From the IMG/VR virus record IMGVR_UViG_3300035698_009869, positions 1 to 40,658 of that record: a stretch of DNA of 40,658 bases; one strand, written 5' to 3'. A model generated the notes under the pieces. It worked only from the letters and a program-made list of their open reading frames with translations, searched no databases and was not told the DNA's origin. The position numbers and the translations under genes are program-made. This DNA comes from a virus. Positions 480 through 40,658 of this stretch are shown here, one piece after another (the stretch's first letter is position 1; the number at the start of each line of letters is the position of its first letter).

Positions 480-1576
480 GAACTGGATTCGTATTCTAAA
501 CCAACCGCATAAATGTAGAGGCTTCTATCGGGGGAAACATATTGATTATGAATCTGTACTCCGAGATAATCACCGGCATTTAGATTAGAGAGGCTTCCAA
601 CCCAATCCCTTTGAAGAGTAGAATCGTTCCCTACGAAGAAAGACCCAGAAGTATCAAAAGCTCCATCCTCGTACGAATCCCCAATACTCATTACTTTAGT
701 TTGAACAGTATAATTTGGACTATTCAAATTCTGATAGGTCACGAAAACCGCTCCCGAAGCATTTGTTGAGCAATCTTCAGGAATAACAATAACCGGCATT
801 TGAGTTTTTGTCCCGGAAAGAACCTTAATCCCACCAACCACCGCACCGGACCCCCAATCAAGGCTCTGAAAATACCTTTCAGAATTCATCTCAAATAAGA
901 TCGTTCTAGAAGTAGCGCTTCCGCAAACCCCCGTGGCGCCCTGCGATCCTTGCAAACCAGTCGAACCCTGGGCACCAAGGAAAGTATCCTCTTGAATGGT
1001 TAATCTACATCTATCCGCTACAAAGTTCCACACATAGGAAGGAATGTGTAAGTTGGCTGTTTGAGAGCCACGGATCCTAATAACATCCCCAGAGGTTAAT
1101 GCTTGATGAATTTTAATTGAAGATGTATTAAATTGATAGTTGCCAGTCATACATTGCGGGAATTCTGCTCCATCAATCTTAACGCCATTTTTCTCGACCC
1201 AGGCCAACATACCCATTTTAGTGTTACCGACTGTTTCAATCGAATAATCTGCAGAGATCCAAAAATTGCCAGTTTGGTTAACAATTACTGCTCCAGATGA
1301 TTGAACAGTGAAGTTTGCACCGGAAGCAAAGGCAGAGTCAATAGGAACTGTTAAGGTCGCAATACCAGACGCCACTCCAGAATCAGAGTTATTATATCCA
1401 GAGAACTTAATGCCTTCTGAACCAACCCCAGTAGAGCCAGCGATTCCGGTTGCACCAGAAAGACCAGTAGAGCCAGCGATTCCGGTTGCACCAGAAAGAC
1501 CAGTGTAACCTTGGATTCCTGTCGCCCCAGTCGATCCTGCTCCGCCTTGAATTGATAAACTTCGACTTGTACTCAT
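476..1576 (-). CDS. Collagen-like fibre protein with C1q-like domain
   Basis: 366 residues. After a short head, Gly-X-Y triplets rich in GATG and GSTG run from about residue 12 to 52. A beta-rich segment of about 140 residues follows that resembles the C1q/TNF-like jelly roll, with alternating hydrophobic strands ending in a W-N-F-V motif. A second short collagen stretch (about residues 201-219) precedes a second beta-rich domain. This is the usual build of trimeric phage fibre tips: collagen stalk, then receptor-binding head. AAGGA lies six bases before the ATG. It is the last minus-strand gene, a usual place for host-recognition proteins. The role in receptor binding is inferred. Confidence 0.8.
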   Translation of the reverse strand: MSTSRSLSIQGGAGSTGATGIQGYTGLSGATGIAGSTGLSGATGIAGSTGVGSEGIKFSGYNNSDSGVASGIATLTVPIDSAFASGANFTVQSSGAVIVNQTGNFWISADYSIETVGNTKMGMLAWVEKNGVKIDGAEFPQCMTGNYQFNTSSIKIHQALTSGDVIRIRGSQTANLHIPSYVWNFVADRCRLTIQEDTFLGAQGSTGLQGSQGATGVCGSATSRTILFEMNSERYFQSLDWGSGAVVGGIKVLSGTKTQMPVIVIPEDCSTNASGAVFVTYQNLNSPNYTVQTKVMSIGDSYEDGAFDTSGSFFVGNDSTLQRDWVGSLSNLNAGDYLGVQIHNQYVSPDRSLYIYAVGLEYESSS

Positions 1577-1606
1577 ATCGGTTCCTTAAAAAATTTTCAT
1601 TGTTCT

Positions 1607-1749
1607 CTAATCAATATCAGTAATCTCGCGGAACTGTAACTCAAAAGAGATCCATTGAGTTCCAACGGCATTCTTAGTCGCTCTCATTAAATGCTTTGAG
1701 TATTGTTTGAAGATATAACTTTTGCCTTAATTTGCTGAAAATAACTCAT
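1607..1749 (-). pseudogene. Small gene needing a -1 frameshift (47 residues if joined)
   Basis: An ATG at 1749 has a good ribosome site (AAGGA, 8 bases away) and lies about 45 bases downstream of a late-promoter motif. The frame stops after 20 codons. In the -1 frame a coherent peptide continues to a TAG at 1607. Changing frame at the A-run in GGCAAAAG joins them into 47 residues, with a C-terminal part containing RATKNAVGTQWISFELQFRE. An internal ATG at 1687 could also give a 26-residue product. It may be a decayed gene, an indel error or a real frameshift. Function unknown; position suggests a fibre accessory protein. Confidence 0.4.
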
Positions 1750-1792
1750 ACTATGTTTCCTTTGTCTAAAAGTTGGTATAAGACATGGCTAA

Positions 1793-1808
1793 AGTTATAG
1801 AATACTCT
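1793..1808 (-). promoter_or_regulatory. Late-promoter motif, copy 1
   Basis: Reads AGAGTATTCTATAACT on the minus strand and matches the shared core A[AG]TA[AT]TCTAT. It stands just after the stop of the long fibre gene and about 45 bases before the small frameshifted gene and the collagen-like fibre gene. Confidence 0.6.
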
Positions 1809-1815
1809 AACGCAC

Positions 1816-4800
1816 CTAGACTATCAACCAGAATGTTCCTGTGTTTTGTATCTTCAAAGAATCCCATTGGGATAAAACCTGAGTATTGCTATCATTTATC
1901 AACTCAAACCCATTTGTTTTAACGGTTGTTGAATTATCAGGATCTATATTTGAGATCGTAAAAATCTTCCCTGTAGTATAATCCGAAACACTCAAAAGAT
2001 TTATTTGGATCGCTCCAGAGCACATTACCGTATCATTTGTAGGACCAACATCATAATCATTTGTAACCTTAACAATGTTCAGGGCTAAACCTGTAAAGGT
2101 AACTGCCGTCTCTTCTAAAGCAAATTTCTTATCAGTACTACCACTATTGGTCCAATAAGGTTTCGAGTCAGTTGTTTTGACCCACATAGTATCTGTAGCG
2201 GCTGGATGGGAAGCAACTTTTGAGAGTTGCATGCCAATCGGGTCCAAAAGGCCATCAATTGTCATCTTACCGACTACATGACAATCCCCAGAAACACGAA
2301 CATCCCCACCAAAAGTAGAAGTGTTCGTGTCTCCGTCATAAGTGAGTTGACTCGAAGTTGTTAACACTCCATTAGAATCAGTTATTAAGATCCTCTTGGC
2401 AGTTAGGTCTTCAGGATTATCGAATGCATCTCCCAGAGAGAACGAACATACACCATTTTCTAAGCAAGTAAAACAGTACTGAGAATTGCTTCCGGAAGCG
2501 TCTGGTTTAGTTTTTGTGAACTCTCCGGCAACGTCTGACAGCCAATATGTGTCTCCAGCAGTGATATTGGTTGCTTCTGAAGTAACGGCAGTCCATTCTA
2601 AAGCTGTCCCGGAAACCACTCCTGAGAAGGTAATCGTTATATTTGAGCCACTCACTTCCGTGACTATACCATCTGCTGTAGCGATATCTGCTGTTGCTGC
2701 CGCTTGTTTCCAATTCCCTGAATTATCCACATATGCTGCTTGGAGCAAAGTTAACCCATGACCTGGTTGAGTAAAGACCCTAGAGTTCAGATTCTGACCT
2801 ATTATCTTCCCTTTAACATCTAAATTGTGATACATGGTCCAAGTTGCTTCATAAACAGTATCTTGAACCCGATCCTCATCAAAGACTTTGGATTCGATAT
2901 CACGGAAACCAGTGGAAACGTCTGATGTTGTAGTCGTGATATCGAATCCATCTATAAGGTAACCCTCTGACGAAGGGTACCCGAGACCAAGTGAACCATT
3001 GTCCGCTTGGATTATTAATTCGCATGCCGGTAAATCAGTATCTCTCAAAACCTCATCTTGAAGATCAATGGCTGGGCTATGAATAAACCATCCACCCCTT
3101 TCAGCAACCCCTTTTAATCGATAACGGCCTTTTCCGAAGGTATCTCTCCGATAAGCATGTTCTTGTCCTGTTCTGTACTCCCAATCCTCGGTTAAAGCTG
3201 AACCAAATGCTGAAATGCTGGCAGATAATGGAGCTGACTCCCAATTCCTTATCTGGTTCTCAGAATCGATATTAAAACGGCCATAATTTAGATTATCAAG
3301 ATCCCTCGGGGGAATCGCAATTCCCATAAACTGAGGACCAGCAAAGGTTTCATATCTTCTTGAAGGTTCCCAACCGTATCCTTCTATAGGAAGTAATCCA
3401 TTTAAGTTAGGTGAAGTAGGATCAGGAATAACACTATAATTTCCATTCCCACACGGATTAGTAACTGGTTTCTTTCCAATGATATCTCGGATAGCAAGTC
3501 TTTGACCAACCGAAGCAGAGTCTGGAAGGATCTTCATCTCAGGACCTAAGCATCCAATGCTTGGGGTTTCTAACCCAATTCCACCGTCTGGAGTATCCGC
3601 TCCACCTGGGGGAAGGGCAATACCGCCTTCTCCAGGAATAACGAAATCACCGCCGCCGCCTAATCCGGTTGGAATGGGAACGTCATCGGTGGGGGGCAAA
3701 TATGGTGTGTAAGGGGGATCAGAAGGTTCTTCAGGTACTCTTACTTCCCATCTCCAAAGACCTTCAACAGACCCATTTAACCAATGAGGATGATTAGAGT
3801 TTGGATCGTATCTGTGATGAACTAATCTCCATAATCCCCTATCTCCGGGCTCTTCCCAATCAGGTTTCATAAAGTCTTGAGGAGCATCTCTAGTCTGATC
3901 CATATAATAATAACCGCCGGTCCATATATGGTCTGAGTTAATTGGTTGCCCATCTAAATTGATCCCACAATTATGCTTATCGCCTCCTGGATGACCTGCA
4001 TGCTCGTATCCTGATCTGACCCAGGATCCGAAAGCTCCTGTAAAGTCATTGGCTTTAATAGAACCTGATTGACCTTCTCCAACAGCTGTTTTTAAACCGA
4101 AAGCACCAATACCGTCTCCAGATTTAGCATAGTCTAAAGTACAAGTGGCCCCACCTTCTTTAGCGAAGTTGACCTTTTTAGGATTAATATCTGGATCATG
4201 AAACTCTGAGGTAGGATCAACACCACCAGGCATACGAGAAATCTTCTGAATTACTAAAGATCCTTGTAAACCTGCTGATCTTTCCGAGTCTCTGTTATTT
4301 CCTTCTATATCCGCGAAAGTAGTACTGTGTTTGGCTGGGCCTTCTTCTCGATGATGAATTATAAGAGAATTAGCTGATTTATCAAAACCTGGGATCTTTG
4401 CACCAACAATTGGGAAGAATATAGGAACCTGTTCTGTTTCCTTAGTTGCTGCTACTATAATACCTGGAGTTCCAGGAAGGAGATCATCTTGGCCGGTAAA
4501 GATCATTTTCTTCATTCGGGTGTCTAATGAGAACTCTTCATTACCAGGACTTAGTATCCTTGGATCTGCTTGATGTGTTACATCATCGCTAAAGTATCTG
4601 GTTTCATCATTATTAGGATCATTAGGGTCTCTGGATTCTCCTTTAACGACCAAATCAAATATTGGAAGTAAGGCCCGGTCATCAGCTCCGGCAGTCTTTG
4701 TTACGGTTACTTGAGGTGCTGGAGCTGGAGCTGTCCCGCCTCCTCCTGGAGTGATTGGGGGAATCTCAACAGAAACTCCGGTACCTTCTTCCATAACGAC

Positions 4801-28976: not shown

Positions 28977-29702
28977 TTAGAATAGTCCCCAAACGGAACC
29001 GTCGAAGTGGTAAAAGTTTGAAGCATAAGGACTTAGGGTCATATTAACTGCTCCATCAATATTATGACTACCAGAAACTGTTAAAGCGGTCCCAGTGTCC
29101 CTATTCTTAATCATTATTAAGCGGTTCGTGCCTGGAGAAGATGGAAGATTGATTTGATCATTAACAATTGTGCTATAGAAAACGGTTCCTTTATCAATTG
29201 TATACCCAGAAGCGGTTGCGTCTGTATGGTCTGGATAGATCTCAAATACCTTTAATTCAGATTCCCCAGTATCAAGGTTGACGGTGACCCCAGATGTTGC
29301 TGGAAAGAGTGCTAGACCCGTTTCTCCCCAATAGGCTGTTCCGCCTGCTCCTACGCCGGTCGCTCCGATGGCACCTACAGCACCAGCAATTCCGATAATT
29401 CCGGTTTCTCCAACTGCTCCGGCAGATCCTGCAACACCTTGCAAACCGGTCACTCCTTCTCCAGTTTCTCCGATAATTCCGGTTTCTCCAACTGCTCCGG
29501 CAGATCCTGCAACACCTTGTAAACCTGTTTCTCCGGCTCCTGTTATGCCTGTTTCTCCGGTCGATCCAGCAACACCTTGCAAACCGGTCACTCCAAGGCC
29601 CTGGATACCGGTTTCTCCGTCTATTCCAGAAAGGCCGGTTGCCCCAATTAATCCTGTTGCTCCTCCTCCAGACCCGCCTCCTCCAACTGCAAAAACTTTC
29701 AT
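28977..29702 (-). CDS. Collagen-like fibre protein
   Basis: 241 residues from the ATG at 29702 (AAAGGAG upstream; an upstream ATG has none). A Gly-rich start is followed by about 120 residues of Gly-X-Y triplets (G-A-T-G, G-E-T-G, G-V-A-G), then a beta-rich C-terminal head of about 95 residues with H-N-I-D-G-A-V and Y-H-F-D-G-S-V-W. A 51-base DNA repeat at 29391-29441 and 29469-29519 lies within the collagen part, so stalk length may vary by recombination. It is likely a thin virion fibre. Confidence 0.75.
29391..29519 (-). repeat. 51-base repeat within the collagen stalk
   Basis: Two identical 51-base copies start at 29391 and 29469 (78-base spacing = 26 codons). They encode the [10 protein letters not shown] type collagen triplets. 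Confidence 0.8.
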
Positions 29703-29712
29703 ATTGACTCCT

Positions 29713-30144
29713 TTATCCGTTGAATTTGACGTTATTTTGGCCGAATGAGAATTGTATTCCGCCCCCACTTGCTGTTACTGCAGTTGCTTGCGATCTAATT
29801 GCAATACAATGATTCTGAGGTTCATTATCAAACCGATACATGAATAACGCTGGTGTCGATGAATCAGATTTATAAAGATCCTGATAAAGAAGTGGGGGTG
29901 TCCCAGCAGCATTATCCAAAGTTGCTTTAGATTCTGCTAATATAACCACATCGGTCTTATCAACTAATGATGCTCCAGAAGTAGTTGCTGACGGATTCTT
30001 ACAGGAATAGGCATCTGCTCCTACAAAAACGGTCAGTATCTCATTATTTCCATGTAATTTAAAAACAGCAGGATCTGCAGTAGAGGCAGGAAGAACTATT
30101 CTTCCGACTTTCGCTGTGTAGTCTTTTGATTCGTATACTGGCAT
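29713..30144 (-). CDS. Small virion-type protein, leader of the fibre operon
   Basis: 143 residues, beta-rich and polar with many Thr, Ser, Ala and Asp. It begins M-P-V-Y-E-S-K-D-Y. The gene has AAGGAG upstream and lies about 45 bases after a late-promoter motif that directly follows a strong terminator. It looks like a decoration or fibre-base protein, but I recognise no family. Confidence 0.5.
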
Positions 30145-31176: not shown

Positions 31177-32571
31177 CTACTTCAACTTCCGAAATAACTC
31201 AGATAAAGTCTTTTGATCATAATCTGGAGCCATTTTAGCAAACTCAGCATAATCATTTCTTCTTGCCGCTTTTCTCATCTTGGTTGCGCTAACTCCATCT
31301 CTAGGAACTATTTGAAGACTAATATTAAGATCTTTAAACTCACCCATTCGATCATCTCCACAAAGAAGTTTTGGATTTTTATAACCCTTCTCGAAAAGGT
31401 AGTTTAGTGCTTGATATACAGTCTTTATCTCTTTATCTTCACATATATTGAGATTTGGGTTGATCTTCTTGATTAAGTCCAGTTTCTCATTATAATGGAG
31501 AGGATTTTTTTCGTAGTCATGGGTCTGGCTTGTGAACAAGATATGATTATCCGAGTCCTCTAGGGTTTTGAATAGCTTTGCATGTGCCCTTTGGGGAGGA
31601 TTGAATCTTCCAAAACAGAACAGGACGTCATATAACTTAAACTTGCTATTATTAAGATTGTGAGTCGAGAAAGAGAACCTGTCTACTAATTTGGCTGGCT
31701 TATTCTGGTATGAGCAAACAAATCCTTCAGAAAAGCTAGCATCTAAAGGTAACTTCTGATCTTCTAAACCATCCATCATCTCATACTTGGTTTCTTGAAC
31801 TTTCTTATAAAGAGCAAAGGCATTTATGATATATTGACGGGATTTAGAGAATGATTTGACTTTTTTTGGTTCCTTCTCTCTAATAAACTTCATGAAATCA
31901 TTAACTGAAGCATCGTACTCTAATTTACGAACCTTTGAATTGAAATACTTTAGAGCTAATCGATTTATGTTATTGATATCAGATGATTTAAGTCTCTTAG
32001 AAAGGGATTCTAGGATGTTAATCTCTTGAGAAGGACAGGATTTGGCAAAGGTTTCAGATTGGATTCTCGGATCAAACGAATAGATCTTCTTAGATTCGAA
32101 CTTTGGAACCTTCTGATAAACTATTTCCCCTTCTTCAATCTTAGAATGAAAAACTACTCCGACGTTACTTTCTTCTATCCTAGCATATGTTTCTGATTCC
32201 GGTTTACTAGAGTATTGGACCATGTTTGGAGAAAAGGAAACTTCTGTGGAATCCTTATACAAATCATCCTTAGCATATAGGAAATCCCCCATCCATACAT
32301 CTTCTAGATCTTCTGGCAGGTTCTCCCAAAGGGTTTTCAATTTAGATCTCACAATAGGATTCCGGATCTCTTCAAAGTCGGATTCTTTGGAGTATATCCT
32401 GGGTTCTTTGTTGAAATAGCTTTTTGTGCTGACAAATCCCGGTCCAATAATACAAGCAGGAGCGCCATCCACCTTATGGCTGACTTCTAAAGGATTCATT
32501 AAAAGGTCCTTTAGAGTCTGTCTATCCGTGAAAACTAACTCTTCGATATGCATTAAGTGAGCATTTGCCAT
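31177..32571 (-). CDS. Ligase-like nucleotidyltransferase fused to NMN-adenylyltransferase-like domain
   Basis: 464 residues, two domains. N-terminal (1 to about 300): covalent nucleotidyltransferase plan with K33-V-D-G, F-N-K-E-P-R-I-Y (53-60), G-D-F-L-Y (95-99), S-E-G-F-V (281-285) and a Lys at 294, resembling the DUF6267 proteins of T4-like phages and RNA-ligase motifs I, IV and V. C-terminal (318-464): F-G-R-F-N-P-P-Q-R-A-H (320-330) and S-A-T-K-M-R (428-433), as in NMN adenylyltransferases, but the usual H/T-x-G-H reads Q-R-A-H. It could repair RNA or DNA and act in NAD metabolism; substrates are unknown. Confidence 0.75.
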   Translation of the reverse strand: MANAHLMHIEELVFTDRQTLKDLLMNPLEVSHKVDGAPACIIGPGFVSTKSYFNKEPRIYSKESDFEEIRNPIVRSKLKTLWENLPEDLEDVWMGDFLYAKDDLYKDSTEVSFSPNMVQYSSKPESETYARIEESNVGVVFHSKIEEGEIVYQKVPKFESKKIYSFDPRIQSETFAKSCPSQEINILESLSKRLKSSDINNINRLALKYFNSKVRKLEYDASVNDFMKFIREKEPKKVKSFSKSRQYIINAFALYKKVQETKYEMMDGLEDQKLPLDASFSEGFVCSYQNKPAKLVDRFSFSTHNLNNSKFKLYDVLFCFGRFNPPQRAHAKLFKTLEDSDNHILFTSQTHDYEKNPLHYNEKLDLIKKINPNLNICEDKEIKTVYQALNYLFEKGYKNPKLLCGDDRMGEFKDLNISLQIVPRDGVSATKMRKAARRNDYAEFAKMAPDYDQKTLSELFRKLK

Positions 32572-32610: not shown

Positions 32611-33639
32611 TTACTCATTGACCGGCGGGAATCCAGTATACTTTAACCGTAACATATCATAATATTTTCCGGCTTCTATCTCTGACTTAAAAGATTTCTG
32701 GATATAGATCCCTTTTTCCTTACATCTAAAGTGAATTTTCCAAGAGGAACCCCTTTTGTTCCAGGTCACACCCCGCAGAGAAGAGGAACATGGCTTCCCA
32801 TGATACGATTTATACTTCTTCCCATTGTGTCCATTCAATGAATGAGATAATAATCTCAGGTTCTCTCTTTGGTTGTTAGAGGAATCCTGGTCTATATGAT
32901 CTACAAATATTTGGGATACCAATTCTTCTCCCATCCGTATCATAACCCAATTTGAAATATCCTTAGGAGTTTCTGAGGTTCCTCTTATTGAATAATAAAG
33001 TCTCTTTAATTTCCGATTATAAGAAAGGCAGAAATCATTGTTATTCTCTTTTATAAAATCCCAATCTATCTTTGAGAAGTACGATTTGTAGCTCTTTCTT
33101 CTGGTGGTTCCCTTTCTAATCACGGTTAATCTGATGTAATAACCTTTTTCATCCGTTTCATAATATCTCTTATTGAGAGCTGGATAAGGATCGATTCCTA
33201 ACTCATTTCTTCTAATTGCAACGGATCCAGATCCAATCTTAAATTGATTTGCTATCTCCCAATCTGGTTTAGTTCCGACTAGCTTACAAATCTTATCATG
33301 TTTCTTTTGAGAGATATGTTTCTTATGTCCTTTTATTCCAAGCTTATGTCTTAAATGACAAACATTGAATCGGTTCATCTCAGGAAACCTCTTAATAAGT
33401 TTATCAGATACCTGCTTATCAGATGATTTTCCTAGTAAAGGAATTGCTGCTTTTCTAGCTTCCTGAGTTATTGTTCTGTGGTAATATGCCTTAATTCCTA
33501 ATAAACATCTCAGATTCCGAGCTAAAGTAACTGATATTCCTATTCGATCCCCAGCATTCTTATCTGACTCCATTCCCAAAAAAGGAATAATCAAATCCAG
33601 TTCTTTTGGTGTGTATTGTCGTGGTTTCCTATTTCCCAT
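32611..33639 (-). CDS. HNH homing endonuclease with AP2 domain and N-terminal HTH repeats
   Basis: 342 residues. The N-terminal 150 hold three helix-turn-helix-like modules, each with a Leu-Gly, Ser/Pro-Asp, Ala, R-R or L-R and L-G-I pattern (about 15-50, 65-102 and 117-150). The HNH core is V-D-H-I-D (246-250), N256, N260-L-R and N269. An AP2 DNA-binding domain follows (286-335; S-S-L-R-G-V-T-W, Y-I-Q-K-S-F). All expected residues are present. It is a free-standing mobile gene, as in many phages. Its N-terminal modules are like those in the 38121 gene. A strong AAAGGAGG lies upstream. Confidence 0.85.
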   Translation of the reverse strand: MGNRKPRQYTPKELDLIIPFLGMESDKNAGDRIGISVTLARNLRCLLGIKAYYHRTITQEARKAAIPLLGKSSDKQVSDKLIKRFPEMNRFNVCHLRHKLGIKGHKKHISQKKHDKICKLVGTKPDWEIANQFKIGSGSVAIRRNELGIDPYPALNKRYYETDEKGYYIRLTVIRKGTTRRKSYKSYFSKIDWDFIKENNNDFCLSYNRKLKRLYYSIRGTSETPKDISNWVMIRMGEELVSQIFVDHIDQDSSNNQRENLRLLSHSLNGHNGKKYKSYHGKPCSSSLRGVTWNKRGSSWKIHFRCKEKGIYIQKSFKSEIEAGKYYDMLRLKYTGFPPVNE

Positions 33640-34167: not shown

Positions 34168-34723
34168 GCTATGATATACCGACTACGGTCCAGAATCCTC
34201 CCCCGCCCTTTTTCGGGATTCGTTGCCGGACTTCTCCCCCGCCCTTTTTCGGGATTCGTTGCCGGACTTCTCCCCCGCCCTTTTTCGGGATTCGTTGCCG
34301 GACTTCTCCCATGACTTTTGATACCGTACTAGATTCTGCATGCTCACATGTGATTTTCGAGGTGTTCCTGTGATTTTCCGCCTAATCCATGTCTATTGGT
34401 CAGAATCCTGGTTATAAGTCCACATGCTCACATTTGCATGGGGGTAGAGGAATGGGGATCTAGAGAATCTCAGACTAATTTAGGAACTGTTCCGGTTTTT
34501 TGAATGCTCACGTTTAATTCGACTTCAAAACCATACCCCCGAGATAATCCGCGTTTAGAGTAATATATTAATATATTAATCTATATTCTCTCTTTAGTGG
34601 TAGGATAAGTGAGCATGTATGCCCACTCATATTGAAGCATAGTTTAGATCCCGAACAGGACCGAACAGGACCACCCACATTTCAAAATTCCGATTTTCGT
34701 AATATAAGAACGGTTATGATTTC
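34168..34723. other. Repeat-rich non-coding block, candidate origin or control region
   Basis: A 556-base stretch without a credible gene. It contains three GC-rich 36-base tandem repeats (34198-34305), ATGCTCAC at 34340, 34424 and 34504 with its inverse GTGAGCAT at 34609, an AT-only run (34561-34580), and a 10-base tandem duplication CCGAACAGGA (34651-34670). Iteron-like direct repeats beside an AT-rich run are typical of replication origins. Confidence 0.5.
34198..34305. repeat. 36-base tandem repeat, three exact copies
   Basis: Copies at 34198-34233, 34234-34269 and 34270-34305, followed by a partial CTCCC. Each contains CTCCCCCGCCC, TTTTTCGGG and CGTTGCCGG in order. The unit is far more GC-rich than its surroundings. 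Confidence 0.95.
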
Positions 34724-35104: not shown

Positions 35105-35529
35105 TTTGCGTATCCTTAAAAAGTTTAATAAAAGGGATTTAAAATTATTTTTGTGTAAGTCTATGGATAGGATCGAAGTATAATCCATATAGGCAATAAA
35201 GAAGCCGGCAGGTTTAAAAAAACCAGCCATCAAAAATAAGTTTAGTTTGTAGTGTCTTTGGGTTCCTTTCCAGTTAAATGTTTTCTTACAATGCTTTTAC
35301 CGGAAAAATCCCAGGGAAAAACAAATTAGACTTATTTTTGTGCTTTTCTTTTAAAAAGGACTTTTTTCTAATTTAGTCCGTATAATCTAGTATTATTAGA
35401 GATTAGTGGGCACCGCTGCCACAACAAGATATTATCCAGGGAACCGATCAAAAAGTAGGAATGGCCATTTAGCGGTGCCCCATTCTGAAAGATCGGTTCC
35501 CTGGTCCAATTTTTTATGGAGCACCGCTT
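35105..35529. promoter_or_regulatory. Divergent intergenic region between the two arms
   Basis: This holds the start signals of both arms. On the plus strand TATAAT at 35381-35386 is preceded by CCG and would give a leader of about 135 bases. Earlier there is an imperfect hairpin at 35207-35228 and two copies of TTATTTTTGTG (35145 and 35332). The last 120 bases hold the interleaved inverted repeats described separately. No gene is seen. Confidence 0.55.
35408..35529 (+). promoter_or_regulatory. Interleaved inverted repeats in the primase leader (possible RNA switch)
   Basis: Arm A GGGCACCGCT (35408-35417), arm B CCAGGGAACCGATC (35436-35449), A' AGCGGTGCCC (35471-35480), B' GATCGGTTCCCTGG (35491-35504). 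Both pairs are perfect, and because they alternate (A-B-A'-B') they would form a pseudoknot. GCACCGCT occurs again at 35521-35528, between GGAG and the ATG at 35530, so A' can pair either with A or with the ribosome site. Confidence 0.7.
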
Positions 35530-38076
35530 ATGCCAGACTCATATCCCAAACTCTTTGAAGACGACCCTATTGAAGAAACTGATGACGATTCTGAATATCT
35601 CAGATTACAGTCCTTATCCATCAAGGACGTCCTAACCGAAGCAAAGATCTTTTTTAAAGACTACCATAATAAGGAAAAGGCAATCAATCCGGATATGGCA
35701 AAACTCCCAAAATGGATTCAATCCATTTTCCATATAGGGATCTACCCATATAGGGATTTAAGAAGAATCCATAGTTTAATGTGGATTAATGTGATTTACG
35801 CGAGATTAGCGCAAATTGCGGCGGCATATCATATTAAAATAGAGCTACCAGATGGGTCCCTCAAACCATTATCCTATTTTTCCTTTGTAATTGCCGAATC
35901 GGGTAAAGGAAAGGATCGGGCTATGAAAAAACTTATAGAGTGGGCAAAAGTTGAAATATCCAATAAGTTCTTCAAAGAACGGTTCAATTTAATTCAGAAT
36001 GATCAAAGAATAGATCTTTTGGCTTTAAAGAACTTATCCGATGCCGACCAATTAAAAATGCTTGATGTTCTTCCTGAGCTTGTTATCCCAAAATGGTCTG
36101 TTGGATCTTTTTCACTTTCAACAGCGCAGGGGTATAGGGATCATTTAATCAATACTAATCTTCTTGGATTCGGGGGTTTATTCATTGAAGCAACAGAATT
36201 TGGAGAAGCGTATAAGTCAAGGAACTCCGCATCCACCCTCGTTATATTCGAAATGCTACCAGCCTTATATGATGGATCTTTCCAAATAGGAGCACTAGTC
36301 AAGAACAAAGAAAGGAAAGATGCCCTTTCTTTCCTTCCAGAATCTGGCCTATCTGCAAACTGTATTCTCTTTGCTCACACTTCTTCCGCCCCATTAGAAG
36401 AAAATAGACTAGAGTTTCAAAATACCATAAAAGGAACTCTTGGGAGAAGATCTACTTTTTACATCCTTTCCCCAAGGATGATGGATCAATATGAGACCGA
36501 CTTAGAAAAAGAACTATTTGAGGAATCTAAGGAAGCTATAGGAAGAACCGAACGAGAAGTGGCAGAGGTACTCAAACAACAAATCTTCGATCCCTTTGAG
36601 GATTATTTGGTTAAGGTCTTTTTAAAAGAACAACCAGTTAAATTCTTTAAAGAATCCAAGGAAGCATTCGTTTATTGGAACGAACTTAATATGGTTAAAT
36701 CTAAGAAATTTGGAGAAGAATACCCAGGAAATGCTAGTTTCCTAAGACCAGAAATAGAAGGACGTGCTTTTAAAGCCATATCAATTGCGGCGATTAATGC
36801 TTTAATGGAGAATGCCTTATCTCTTAATAAGAATAACCATATATCCAAAAATGCCTATATGGATGCCATGTATTTGACAGAATTATCTGGTTCACATCTT
36901 CAAAAATGGTTTATTTCGCCCCAGGGGGATCAACAACCAATATGGTTACATGTATATGAATGGTTAAAGTACGAAGGGTTTCCAGAAGTATCCAAATCTG
37001 ATATCTTTAGGAAGTTTTTTAATAAACAGTATTTTCCGGCTGCCAGGTTCTCTTTCACCAATTCAAATCAAAAGTCGAACTTCTTCAATACATTATGGGA
37101 AGATCTAACCTTTCATTTAGAGAAACGGGAACAACATGCTCACATTACCAAGGGAAGCAAAAAGAGCAATTACTCTTTTCAAATACTTCCCAAAGATAAA
37201 ACACCAATTAAGGATACTGACAAGGTTAATATATCCATATCAACAACAGAATCTACCCATAAACTTAAGATAGTCAATAAAGGATTTAAGACCCTTAAAA
37301 TTGCCTGGTCCAAAATTCCAGATCTGGTTAGACATAAGAAAGCTACTGCCTATTCCCCTTACTCATATAAAGAAGGAACAAGGCATGGGGATAATTGGAT
37401 AGGTGAAACCGACCTTTTTATCTTGGATATTGATAATGATATCCCGGAATATACTTGGTTAGGAATAGAGCAAGCAGCTCGTTTTATTGAGAAATTGGGT
37501 CTTGGAGCCTGGATAATACCAACTCGAAGCCACATGAAAGGGAAGGATGGGAATGATCCAAGACCCAAATTTAGAATCTTCCTTAGGTTAAAAACCCCAA
37601 TTGTAGCTGCAGAGGTTAAAAACCCAACAAAGGTGATCCAAGCCCTTTTCTTGTACTTCAAAAAAGCAGGGATCACCCAATACGATAAGTCGTGTAAGGA
37701 TGCAGCAAGACATTATTTTCCGTCCCCAAATTTGAAAGGAATTAAATGCGAAGGAACCCCACTTAATTGGGAAAACATTTATGCGGATTATATCCTTAGA
37801 TCAGATGACTTTGTTATGGATTACGATTCTAAAGGCACTACAACTGAAAAAGACCTGTTAAGATGGGTTCGATATTATAAGGATAATCCACCTAGTATCG
37901 GTCACCGAAATAATAGTCTTTTTAAGACTGCATGTAACGCAGCTAGACTTGGTTGGAGTCTTGATAAAATAACCCAGGAACTAAAACCAACCGCCGAATC
38001 AGTGGGAACAGAAGGAATAAACACCACTATCCTTTCTGCATATAAAAAAATTAGTCAATCCGCTTATAGTGAGTAA
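35530..38076 (+). CDS. Helicase-like ATPase / primase fusion (DUF3987-like + AEP + PriCT)
   Basis: 848 residues. Residues 120-134 hold a P-loop-like V-I-A-E-S-G-K-G-K-D-R; G-G-L-F-I-E-A-T-E-F (214-223) is a Walker B candidate; G-T-L-G-R-R-S (303-309) could be an arginine finger. This part resembles DUF3987-type phage/plasmid helicases. The C-terminal part has the archaeo-eukaryotic primase pattern: L-D-I-D-N-D (632-637), R-P-K-F-R (678-682) and D719...R727-H-Y-F-P. A PriCT-like end follows (G-H-R-N-N-S-L-F, 791-798). It is likely the main replication protein. The helicase-before-primase order is less common. GGAG is eight bases from the ATG. Confidence 0.7.
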   Translation: MPDSYPKLFEDDPIEETDDDSEYLRLQSLSIKDVLTEAKIFFKDYHNKEKAINPDMAKLPKWIQSIFHIGIYPYRDLRRIHSLMWINVIYARLAQIAAAYHIKIELPDGSLKPLSYFSFVIAESGKGKDRAMKKLIEWAKVEISNKFFKERFNLIQNDQRIDLLALKNLSDADQLKMLDVLPELVIPKWSVGSFSLSTAQGYRDHLINTNLLGFGGLFIEATEFGEAYKSRNSASTLVIFEMLPALYDGSFQIGALVKNKERKDALSFLPESGLSANCILFAHTSSAPLEENRLEFQNTIKGTLGRRSTFYILSPRMMDQYETDLEKELFEESKEAIGRTEREVAEVLKQQIFDPFEDYLVKVFLKEQPVKFFKESKEAFVYWNELNMVKSKKFGEEYPGNASFLRPEIEGRAFKAISIAAINALMENALSLNKNNHISKNAYMDAMYLTELSGSHLQKWFISPQGDQQPIWLHVYEWLKYEGFPEVSKSDIFRKFFNKQYFPAARFSFTNSNQKSNFFNTLWEDLTFHLEKREQHAHITKGSKKSNYSFQILPKDKTPIKDTDKVNISISTTESTHKLKIVNKGFKTLKIAWSKIPDLVRHKKATAYSPYSYKEGTRHGDNWIGETDLFILDIDNDIPEYTWLGIEQAARFIEKLGLGAWIIPTRSHMKGKDGNDPRPKFRIFLRLKTPIVAAEVKNPTKVIQALFLYFKKAGITQYDKSCKDAARHYFPSPNLKGIKCEGTPLNWENIYADYILRSDDFVMDYDSKGTTTEKDLLRWVRYYKDNPPSIGHRNNSLFKTACNAARLGWSLDKITQELKPTAESVGTEGINTTILSAYKKISQSAYSE

Positions 38077-38120: not shown

Positions 38121-38837
38121 ATGCATAACAAAAATAAGGATTGGGAGAAATACGACCACCTATTAGGAAAAAAGATAGATCAGGACCTTGCTGATCTTAT
38201 TGGGAACTGCTCTAAAGGCGCAGTTTTTAAGAGAAGAACTAATAAGGGGATTCCATCCTTCAGAAATATGAAAAGGATTGATTGGGAGAAATACGACCAC
38301 CTATTAGGAAAAACGATAGATCAGGACCTTGCTGATCTTATCCATTGCACGACACATTTCGTTTCTCAGAGAAGAAAGAAATTGGGAATAGAAGCATTCG
38401 GAAAGGGATATGATTGGGAGAAATATGACCACCTATTAGGAAAAACGATAGATCAGGACCTTGCTGATCTTATGGGGATATCCAATATTTCCATTTATAA
38501 TAGGAGAAAGAAATTAGGAATTAAACCCGCTAATCCAAAAATTAAGATTGATTGGGAGAAATACGACCACCTATTAGGAACCATATCGGATCAAGAACTT
38601 TCTAAAATAATTGGAGTTTATACTAGTCCTGTTTATAATCGAAGAAAGAAATTGGGAATAGAAGCATTCGGAAAGGGATATGATTGGGAGAAATACGATC
38701 GTCTATTAGGAAAAATGACAGATAATGAGGTAAGAAAAAAAGTCGGATGTTCTTTAATAACAGTTTCAAAAAGAAGATATAGGAAAGGGATTGCCTCTTT
38801 TAGAGATTATAAAAAAGAAGGAAAAAATAATGACTAA
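38121..38837 (+). CDS. Five-repeat helix-turn-helix protein
   Basis: 238 residues made of five modules of 44-47 residues, starting with Trp at 8, 55, 99, 145 and 189. Each begins W-E-K-Y-D-H-L-L-G, continues D-Q-D-L-A-D-L (1-3) or variants, then a variable helix and R-R-K-K-L-G-I. The framework is nearly identical, even in DNA; the variable part is the predicted recognition helix. The modules resemble the N-terminal repeats of the homing endonuclease at 32611, but no nuclease domain is present. It is probably a sequence-specific DNA-binding protein. AGAGGA precedes the start. Confidence 0.75.
   Translation: MHNKNKDWEKYDHLLGKKIDQDLADLIGNCSKGAVFKRRTNKGIPSFRNMKRIDWEKYDHLLGKTIDQDLADLIHCTTHFVSQRRKKLGIEAFGKGYDWEKYDHLLGKTIDQDLADLMGISNISIYNRRKKLGIKPANPKIKIDWEKYDHLLGTISDQELSKIIGVYTSPVYNRRKKLGIEAFGKGYDWEKYDRLLGKMTDNEVRKKVGCSLITVSKRRYRKGIASFRDYKKEGKNND
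38139..38729 (+). repeat. Nucleotide repeats encoding the HTH modules
   Basis: GATTGGGAGAAATA and the following bases recur at 38139, 38280, 38412, 38550 and 38682. Units 1-3 are almost identical for about 60 bases; units 2 and 4 share the linker encoding E-A-F-G-K-G-Y. Confidence 0.9.
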
Positions 38838-39294
38838 TCAACGAATCAAAGTCTATACGAAAATGAATATAAGGACCGTTCATATCCCTACGCTCTATCC
38901 AGAAAAACCCGATAAATCTGATGCCTTTGGGAAAATTTACCTTCAGAAAACAAATGGGGGAAAATGCTCTACAAAAACCGCTAATCCCAAATGGGTAACT
39001 TCAAAATTAGATGTTGGAGAAGTCGTTTTCTTTGGATTCCTTTCTAGTATATTTTATCAAGGGAAAAGAAATTATAACGGTTGTTTATTAGAAGTAATTG
39101 ATTCTACCAAAACCCAACCATATACTTTTCCGGATGGGACGAAATTCTCATTAATTGGATACGAATTGATAACACATACTAACGATATGAATTTCAACTA
39201 TGCTCAAGCATGCCAGGATTTTCCAATCATGAGACTACATGGAGCAAACAATTGTGCCAGGTTAGTTTACGAGTGTTTAAAGAGAGGATTATAA
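38830..39294 (+). CDS. Unknown protein of the replication arm
   Basis: 154 residues from the ATG at 38830, which has AAGGA upstream and overlaps the previous gene's end. Beta-rich N-terminal two thirds (V-G-E-V-V-F-F-G-F-L, L-L-E-V-I-D-S), then a helical end with two Cys. Single-stranded-DNA binding would suit the neighbourhood and composition, but no motif proves it. Confidence 0.55.
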   Translation: MTNQRIKVYTKMNIRTVHIPTLYPEKPDKSDAFGKIYLQKTNGGKCSTKTANPKWVTSKLDVGEVVFFGFLSSIFYQGKRNYNGCLLEVIDSTKTQPYTFPDGTKFSLIGYELITHTNDMNFNYAQACQDFPIMRLHGANNCARLVYECLKRGL

Positions 39295-39497: not shown

Positions 39498-39541
39498 TAT
39501 CATATAGGATTCAGTAGTTGAGCCCTATATTAATATTATAA

Positions 39542-39560
39542 GGGCACCGGTGGGGTGCTC
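39542..39560 (+). promoter_or_regulatory. Hairpin in the leader of the junction-spanning gene
   Basis: GGGCACC (39542-39548) pairs with GGTGCTC (39554-39560) with one G-T pair. Its first eight bases, GGGCACCG, are also in arm A of the primase leader. It lies about 28 bases before the ATG at 39589, which has TAGGAG upstream. Confidence 0.5.
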
Positions 39561-39588
39561 GGTCCAGAGGTGCTTTAGGAGATTGAGC

Positions 39589-40658
39589 ATGATTAAGGTA
39601 TCCATTCCCCATTTAATCAAATACAGATCTGGAGTCTCTTTTTTAAAGGAATTTCCCTGTACCATAAAATTTACAAATGAATATGATCTTAAAGAGAATG
39701 GCTGGATTAAAAAAATAGCAGTCGAGAAAGACGGGGATTTTTACATTGACCTATCCCAATATCATTGGGAGGCATTACAAGCGGGGTGGTCTAAATTCAA
39801 AGGGGAAAAAGAAGTATCGGATATAGATTTTATCCGATATATGCAGAAAAGTGTCGTAGCAGAATGGAATAATCACCCGAAACAATTATTTGGGAGAATG
39901 AATTTCGAAAACTCTACAATGCAAACAAGAGGTTTAATAATTCGATTACTCTTCAGATACTTCGATAGGAGCTACCCACAGAATTTTACAACGTGGAGAA
40001 ACAAAAACCGGAAGCTGCTGATTGATATAGCACCACCACGTATCTTGGATAAGTTCTTGGATAAGTTCTTGGGGACAGAGGACAACTCTAAGAGGATTCC
40101 TAAAACCCTGTATCGAACCGTTTTTAAGAAGCTAAAAACTATTAATAAGGAGATATCAGTATTAAAGTATGTTGAGAACGATACAGGATTACATGCCGAG
40201 TTTGTTTCTAAAATTCCTAAAGATCTTATAGCATCTTTTTTAACAAGCGATAATTTTGAATCTAGGTCGGCTGCGAAAGCAAGAATAGCCGGAAAGAAAA
40301 AACCAGACTTAAAAAAGGTGTTTAAGGAATCGTTGAAGGACTCGCTGTTAATAGCATTTAAGGATGAGGATAATACTTCCTATTACCCAATTCAAATCGC
40401 TGCAGTAACAATAGGCAATATGAATCTTGGTATTTCAGAGCTAACGTTTAGACACCAAACCCAATCCCTTAAACAAAATCAAAAAGACTGCTTTTTTATC
40501 TCAATGAAAATCATACTTGAAGAGAAATCCAATTATAGTATGCATCATTATTATTCTCTTTCAAGGAAGAAAAAGGATGCCGATGGGTATCAAAAGGACT
40601 TTTCCAAAGAGGAAATCCAAGAGGAATTTTCTCTTCCTACATCCGTAACTCTAAACAA
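39589..40658 (+). CDS. Junction-spanning unknown protein (N-terminal part; continues at 1-266)
   Basis: The frame opens at the ATG at 39589 with GGAG eight bases upstream and runs to the window end without a stop. Across the join it ends at 266, giving 402 residues. The N-terminal third is aromatic-rich (Y-H-W-E-A-L-Q-A-G-W); the middle is basic and helical with a K-K-K-P-D-L-K-K stretch; a later beta part includes I-Q-I-A-A-V-T-I-G. No domain is recognised. It is the last large gene of the plus-strand arm and may take part in replication, recombination or host takeover. Confidence 0.7.
   Translation, partial: MIKVSIPHLIKYRSGVSFLKEFPCTIKFTNEYDLKENGWIKKIAVEKDGDFYIDLSQYHWEALQAGWSKFKGEKEVSDIDFIRYMQKSVVAEWNNHPKQLFGRMNFENSTMQTRGLIIRLLFRYFDRSYPQNFTTWRNKNRKLLIDIAPPRILDKFLDKFLGTEDNSKRIPKTLYRTVFKKLKTINKEISVLKYVENDTGLHAEFVSKIPKDLIASFLTSDNFESRSAAKARIAGKKKPDLKKVFKESLKDSLLIAFKDEDNTSYYPIQIAAVTIGNMNLGISELTFRHQTQSLKQNQKDCFFISMKIILEEKSNYSMHHYYSLSRKKKDADGYQKDFSKEEIQEEFSLPTSVTLN
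40532..40658. repeat. Terminal direct repeat, right copy
   Basis: Identical to 1-127; see that entry. Removing one copy gives a circle of 40,531 bp. Confidence 0.95.

Follow-up and report, generated by a model that had tools for sequence, protein, structure and literature searches.

A tandem helix-turn-helix array protein encoded next to the primase/helicase gene of an orphan phage genome

Few natural DNA-binding proteins consist of many near-identical units whose variation is concentrated at the positions reading the DNA, and TAL effectors (TALEs) and zinc-finger arrays are usually given as examples. Phage homing endonucleases of the GIY-YIG and HNH types contain tandem helix-turn-helix (HTH) modules of about 44 amino acids, as in VPBG_00263 of Vibrio phage helene 12B3, which is annotated as a homing endonuclease. 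In the ICP1 system, DNA-binding repeats of the endonuclease type recombine, and the nuclease-free protein CapR represses capsid expression of ICP1 (PMC10448857). According to its annotation, the D5 protein of phage T5 binds DNA and is needed for replication and for late transcription, and its gene adjoins the helicase gene D6 and is located near pri. Single HTH domains with the core SDxELAxxLGVS...V..R..LGIP are present in FapR, in the RpoN box of sigma-54, in the Fis-type HTH of NtrC-family regulators, and in AsnC/Lrp proteins.

The window analyzed here is the whole IMG/VR virus record IMGVR_UViG_3300035698_009869 with a length of 40,658 nt. As both ends share a 127-bp direct repeat, the phage genome of about 40.5 kb is complete. 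Searches of IMG/VR with the array protein, the primase, the terminase, and the protein encoded downstream of the array did not retrieve any relatives of this phage, which is thus an orphan genome; its terminase has about 25% identity to the terminase of Thermus phage P23-45. The gene at 38121..38837 (plus strand) encodes a 238-aa protein that was recognized as a five-module HTH array from its open reading frame, translation, tandem repeat, and AlphaFold2 model.

According to tblastn and profile searches, this protein shares the module LGTxxDxxLAxxLGVSxxxVxxRRKxLGI with the homing endonucleases. In contrast to these enzymes, it has no nuclease domain, with no match to one in the 238 residues, and the DNA of its modules is unusually similar, whereas endonuclease modules are mutually diverged. 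Profiles of the NUMOD type do not match the array protein at E-values up to 1. The likeness to T5 D5 consists in a phage multi-HTH DNA-binding protein whose gene neighbors those for a helicase and a primase. Of the 46 array windows, 45 are matched by the D5-like family phrog_323 (best E = 3e-23), but its match to the array protein itself reaches only E = 0.0094. However, the module profile gives D5 a score of 2 bits, and D5 has neither the module signature nor its periodicity, and its repeats are not near-copies of each other. CapR and the T5orf172 endonucleases likewise have endonuclease-type DNA-binding repeats that are sometimes nuclease-free and recombine with each other (PMC10448857). The repeats of CapR are Cys zinc fingers, whereas the array modules are HTH units without the CxxC...CxC motif of CapR and DUF723-type repeats, and the cysteines of the array protein are isolated. 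The likeness to TALEs is an analogy, namely nearly identical units in tandem that vary mainly at the positions reading the DNA; TALE repeats comprise 33-35 residues with two helices and a two-residue code, whereas the array modules comprise 44 residues with three helices and several variable positions. FapR, RpoN, NtrC-family, and AsnC/Lrp proteins share the register of the module but have one HTH per chain and usually form oligomers with other domains. The kinds of protein to which the array belongs, multi-HTH proteins and endonuclease-type DNA-binding repeats, are already known, and the array family is a variant of these.

Module layout and repeat DNA

Codon alignment places the modules on the plus strand at 38139..38276, 38280..38408, 38412..38546, 38550..38678, and 38682..38834, with the variable segments G-N-C-S-K-G-A, H-C-T-T-H-F, G-I-S-N-I-S, G-V-Y-T-S-P, and G-C-S-L-I-T, respectively. 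Module 1 has one extra codon, and the last interval includes a basic C-terminal tail that is modelled with low confidence. An initial annotation of this DNA had placed five modules at 38121-38837 and quoted a variable string for each of them; its coordinates are right and all five strings are present. The modules are about 44 residues long with a repeat spacing of 141, 132, 138, and 132 nt, and Tandem Repeats Finder, as an independent method, also reports the array, with a period of 132, 4.3 copies, and a score of 452. The signature residues G11, D15, V/I29, R33, and I38 are retained in all five modules.

The same annotation described the framework as almost identical even in DNA, which a block-by-block pairwise comparison supports for some blocks only. 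Block A (DWEKYDHLLG) has 95% DNA identity over all module pairs, and its changes are mostly synonymous. In block B (KTIDQDLADL), modules 1-3 have 97-100% identity to each other, but identity falls to 50-53% against modules 4 and 5, in which the block is represented by TISDQELSKI and KMTDNEVRKK, respectively. The tail RRKKLGIEAF has an identity of about 90-97% between modules 2 and 4 (29 of 30 nt) and of 50-77% in the other pairs. The variable segment is flanked by R-R-K-K-L-G-I, as had been stated, in modules 2-4, while this motif is replaced by R-R-T-N-K-G-I in module 1 and by R-R-Y-R-K-G-I in module 5.

The recognition segment has 48% identity over all pairs, with pS of 0.66 and pN of 0.48 that are both near saturation. 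Between modules 2 and 3, 59 of 60 positions are identical in blocks A and B, versus 10 of 27 in the recognition segment (Fisher p = 3e-10); in this latter comparison, pairs with module 1 were left out for the recognition segment owing to a register offset of one codon. A copied framework tract at 38361..38458 (plus strand), with its partner at 38631-38728 (direct repeat D2, 88% identity), spans the end of one recognition segment and the module boundary and extends up to the next recognition segment. A simple duplication of whole modules followed by selection on point mutations does not fit, because pS of the recognition segments is saturated and block A is nearly unchanged. The repeat DNA rather looks like a mosaic, in which older and different recognition segments are embedded in framework tracts that have spread by gene conversion or unequal crossover. 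A homogenized framework with divergent recognition segments is found in four unrelated loci, namely in this phage, in the contig L049 (see below), and in the loci L040 and L014.

Fold and position of the variable residues

An AlphaFold model from the single sequence reached a pLDDT of 34, and the AlphaFold2 model based on an alignment of 46 five-module windows was used instead (pLDDT 80.2, pTM 0.40). It has three helices with an HTH in each module, comprising residues 8-14, 20-27, and 32-42 in module 1, 55-61, 67-74, and 78-88 in module 2, 99-105, 111-118, and 122-132 in module 3, 145-151, 157-164, and 168-177 in module 4, and 189-195, 201-208, and 212-222 in module 5. The pTM of 0.40 means that the mutual placement of the five modules is not confidently predicted. 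A fold search of the PDB with the whole model did not yield a significant match, the best HTH match being FapR with E of about 0.8. The module profile, in turn, matches FapR with E = 0.004 over 34 ungapped residues and the RpoN box of sigma-54 with E = 0.006-0.014, and these matches as well as those to AsnC/Lrp and other HTH proteins have one common register. The HTH_AsnC-type model is matched by 33 of the 46 array windows (best E = 7e-13).

On the basis of the model and of the HTH register from the FapR, RpoN, and AsnC matches, the recognition helix (helix 3) corresponds to KGAVFKRRTNK (38214..38246), THFVSQRRKKL (38352..38384), NISIYNRRKKL (38484..38516), TSPVYNRRKK (38622..38651), and LITVSKRRYRK (38754..38786) in modules 1-5, all on the plus strand. 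The hypervariable columns 26, 27, 28, 30, and 31 are all located within this helix, mainly in its N-terminal half, and comprise K32, G33, A34, F36, and K37 in module 1, T78, H79, F80, S82, and Q83 in module 2, N122, I123, S124, Y126, and N127 in module 3, T168, S169, P170, Y172, and N173 in module 4, and L212, I213, T214, S216, and K217 in module 5. The earlier reading of the modules as HTH units thus agrees with the structure prediction, which assigns the variable segment of each to helix 3. Neither of the two outcomes named beforehand as refuting this reading, a predicted structure that lacks an HTH or variable positions beyond the DNA-contact helix, was obtained. The columns of the recognition segment (24-28, 30, and 31) have a mean of 3.57 distinct residues per column versus 1.94 elsewhere (permutation p = 4e-4). 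As columns 12-14 and the linker (39-42) vary too, variation is focused on the recognition helix, as had been proposed, but not confined to it.

In the FapR-DNA complex, Gln41 makes the only base-specific contact in the major groove, and Arg56 makes a contact in the minor groove (PMC3536700). In the profile alignment, these residues correspond to module columns 27 and 42, respectively. Among 373 modules, column 27 has the lowest information content (0.38 bits), followed by columns 31 and 26. The FapR-DNA complex together with this pattern of variation suggests that the modules bind DNA through helix 3.

Distribution of the module

Searches of IMG/VR and of bacterial DNA with a degenerate codon pattern for the module, with fixed gaps, gave 17 IMG/VR loci and 47 bacterial loci. 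With tblastn, array genes are found in 142 plasmid records, 133 of which are labelled Pseudomonas and many of which are conjugative. Plasmids such as pWW0 (L073), pDTG1 (L074), and L075 often have several array-matching places each, and in the latter two array genes adjoin a gene for a MobF relaxase. Arrays with other numbers of modules were sought and found: the stand-alone arrays of phages, Pseudomonas plasmids, Planctomycetota, Verrucomicrobiota, and Paraburkholderia range from 2 to 17 modules. According to ORF analysis, they have 2-10 modules, and 17 modules are found in one MAG contig (L049), in which positions 973-4141 hold this array followed by a second one of at least six modules. In this contig, the framework is nearly invariant and the recognition columns are hypervariable. 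The distribution in Pseudomonas is patchy, as about seven of 79 sampled genomes carry arrays. The module profile also has a single match of about 485 aa in every Pseudomonas; this is not RpoN, as the one that was read is an NtrC-family regulator with a Fis-type HTH.

In phages, the module is also located behind a GIY-YIG domain (L001, E = 2.9e-10; L015, E = 1.7e-5, with NUMOD3 as a separate segment) and occurs together with HNH domains in a second gene of the phage described here (32611-33639) and, as judged by eye, in the locus L018. A search of 50,697 phage records yielded no carriers other than GIY-YIG proteins of Vibrio and Pseudoalteromonas phages and a single stand-alone array, encoded by an uncultured phage of 485 kb.

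No family with an assigned function in Pfam, NCBIfam, or PHROGs describes the module; Pfam gives generic HTH models only, and the PHROGs family with the best match is one of unassigned function. A literature search that included peptide strings yielded no paper on the module within its coverage, outside of which most subscription papers lie, and a paper on a TALE screen (PMC5472282) makes no mention of helix-turn-helix, phage or Pseudomonas. The module family is thus apparently widespread and undescribed. Since stand-alone members are labelled as hypothetical proteins wherever annotation was seen, naming the module would help to annotate phages, Pseudomonas plasmids, and planctomycete genomes.

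Genomic context and proposed function

The array gene is located directly downstream of a gene (35530..38076, plus strand) for an 848-aa primase/helicase-like replication protein (PHROGs DNA primase, E = 1.3e-23; DNA helicase, E = 6.1e-9). Its reading frame is intact and preceded by the ribosome-binding site AGAGG at about 38108. Because the array stop codon overlaps with the ATG of the following gene (ATGACTAA), which encodes a 154-aa protein (38830..39294, plus strand), both genes are probably translationally coupled. This 154-aa protein matches no Pfam or PHROGs family, no nuclease family, and no relative in IMG/VR. In a search against its own genome, the array protein matches the gene at 32611..33639 (minus strand) with E = 6.7e-4. 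This gene encodes a homing-endonuclease-like protein with an HNH_3 nuclease domain (E = 2.1e-6; PHROGs HNH, E = 4.6e-18), an AP2-like C-terminus, and an N-terminus with three weak array-type modules (15.2, 12.6, and 25.0 bits with the module HMM). In other phages, stand-alone arrays are encoded next to the genes for DnaB and the terminase small subunit (L011) or between those for the terminase large subunit and the portal protein (L021).

Most likely, the array protein regulates the replication or transcription of the phage through sequence-specific DNA binding and without a nuclease. This role is suggested by the replication-gene context and by the parallels to T5 D5 and CapR. The protein would consist of five independently folded three-helix HTH modules with short basic linkers between them. 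Each module has its own set of residues in the N-terminal half of the recognition helix and probably reads its own few base pairs, so that all five together would recognize an extended composite DNA site. In phage GIY-YIG and HNH endonucleases, the same module is the non-catalytic and presumably target-recognizing part. Encoded in the replication operon, the array would act without cutting and regulate the phage's own replication or transcription, as may be compared with T5 D5; alternatively, it could be a repressor of another element in the manner of nuclease-free CapR. Exchange of framework DNA between modules by recombination would allow the recognition segments to be reshuffled. We regard this explanation as a whole, with a stand-alone non-catalytic modular protein, a composite site, and a regulatory role, as reasonably probable.

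GIY-YIG and HNH endonucleases have the same modules outside their catalytic domains, and a gene of this kind is present in this phage, which would also be compatible with a decaying and functionless remnant of a homing endonuclease that has lost its GIY-YIG or HNH domain, and stand-alone arrays of other phages adjoin terminase genes, which is a usual location of endonuclease genes (PMC10448857). Such a remnant is unlikely, however, as all five modules are intact and have kept their signature in an open frame with its own ribosome-binding site and an overlap with the next gene. In addition, the changes in block A are mostly synonymous, and arrays of 2-17 modules are widespread in bacteria and plasmids with module order and recognition residues kept across species in two groups. 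The overlap with the next gene and the HNH gene with the same module type could, on the other hand, point to a split homing or interference system, in which the array is the targeting subunit acting in trans for a nuclease, either the HNH protein or the coupled 154-aa protein. This seems quite improbable because the 154-aa protein resembles no nuclease and the HNH protein carries modules of its own. Moreover, no split pair was recognized at other array loci whose neighbors were scanned.

The repeats could also be neutral products of slippage or unequal crossover, with the focus of variation on the recognition helix reflecting no more than the constraint that the structure puts on the framework. 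The copying of framework tracts is evident, and the recognition segments show saturation at silent sites as well, which is in agreement with a neutral origin. Positive selection is not demonstrable from dN/dS of the five modules of this phage, and L049 was used for this question. In the 127 module pairs whose framework pS is low (0.20), the recognition columns have a pN of 0.50. It is higher than framework pS in 125 of these pairs, which is an effect size and not a statistical test since the pairs are non-independent. The Val29 codon in L049 is GTC in nearly all modules despite hypervariable flanking codons, although GTC accounts for 22 of 63 Val codons. Furthermore, module order and recognition residues are conserved across species in two bacterial groups. 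In 10-module arrays of planctomycetes and 8-9-module arrays of Paraburkholderia, identity in columns 26, 27, 28, 30, and 31 is 0.09-0.10 between sister modules within an array but 0.41-0.44 between matching modules across species, a pattern that is expected of specificity positions. Other exposed variable columns have 0.13 within versus 0.36 across and 0.28 versus 0.41, respectively, and the smaller Akkermansiaceae set has no clear effect (0.08 versus 0.13). These data argue against neutrality, which we consider an unlikely explanation. With regard to the recent duplication with selection on specificity that the initial annotation had proposed, the L049 pairs and the cross-species conservation support selection, whereas the saturated synonymous sites in the recognition segments of this phage, next to a nearly unchanged block A, speak against a simple duplication of whole modules with subsequent selection on point mutations.

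Beyond the regulatory role proposed for this protein, the arrays might, as a tentative reading, form a natural modular DNA-recognition system of HTH units that is the HTH counterpart of TALE and zinc-finger arrays. The same tentative reading would include that each module recognizes a short DNA word set mainly by columns 26, 27, 28, 30, and 31, that modules are freely combined by recombination, and that phages, plasmids, and bacteria use these units with or without a nuclease. If true, the arrays and their nuclease fusions would provide combinable DNA-reading units from a new source and would show how targets of phage endonucleases and regulators are changed by module shuffling.

Several further features of the phage genome were observed. 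A non-coding divergent region near the minimum of the cumulative GC skew contains a perfect tandem repeat of 36 bp x 3.1 (34198-34310) with CATGCTCACAT-like repeats nearby, and this region is possibly an origin or control region. The 36-bp repeats and the CATGCTCACAT repeats are possible candidate targets of the array protein, with nothing linking them to it. In the leader of the primase gene (35408-35530, plus strand), GGGCACCGCT (35408) pairs with AGCGGTGCCC (35471) and CCAGGGAACCGATC (35436) pairs with GATCGGTTCCCTGG (35491), and both stems interleave into a pseudoknot. The RNA fold of this leader has a z-score of -4.2, and the leader has no match in Rfam. A second AGCACCGCT (35520) overlaps the start region of the primase gene, which suggests an RNA switch acting on translation. 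Elements of the form GGGCACC/GGTGGGGTGC/GAGGTGC at 39538-39590 (plus strand), located upstream of the next gene, are similar to the primase leader, and both leaders may be co-regulated because of this similarity. The minus strand encodes collagen-like proteins with G-X-Y repeats at 476-1576 and 28977-29768, which are probably fibre proteins. It also encodes a 464-aa protein (31177-32571) that, by eye, has an apparent nucleotidyltransferase motif (GRFNPP..H ... SATKMR) and possibly a ligase-like N-terminus (HKVDGAP).
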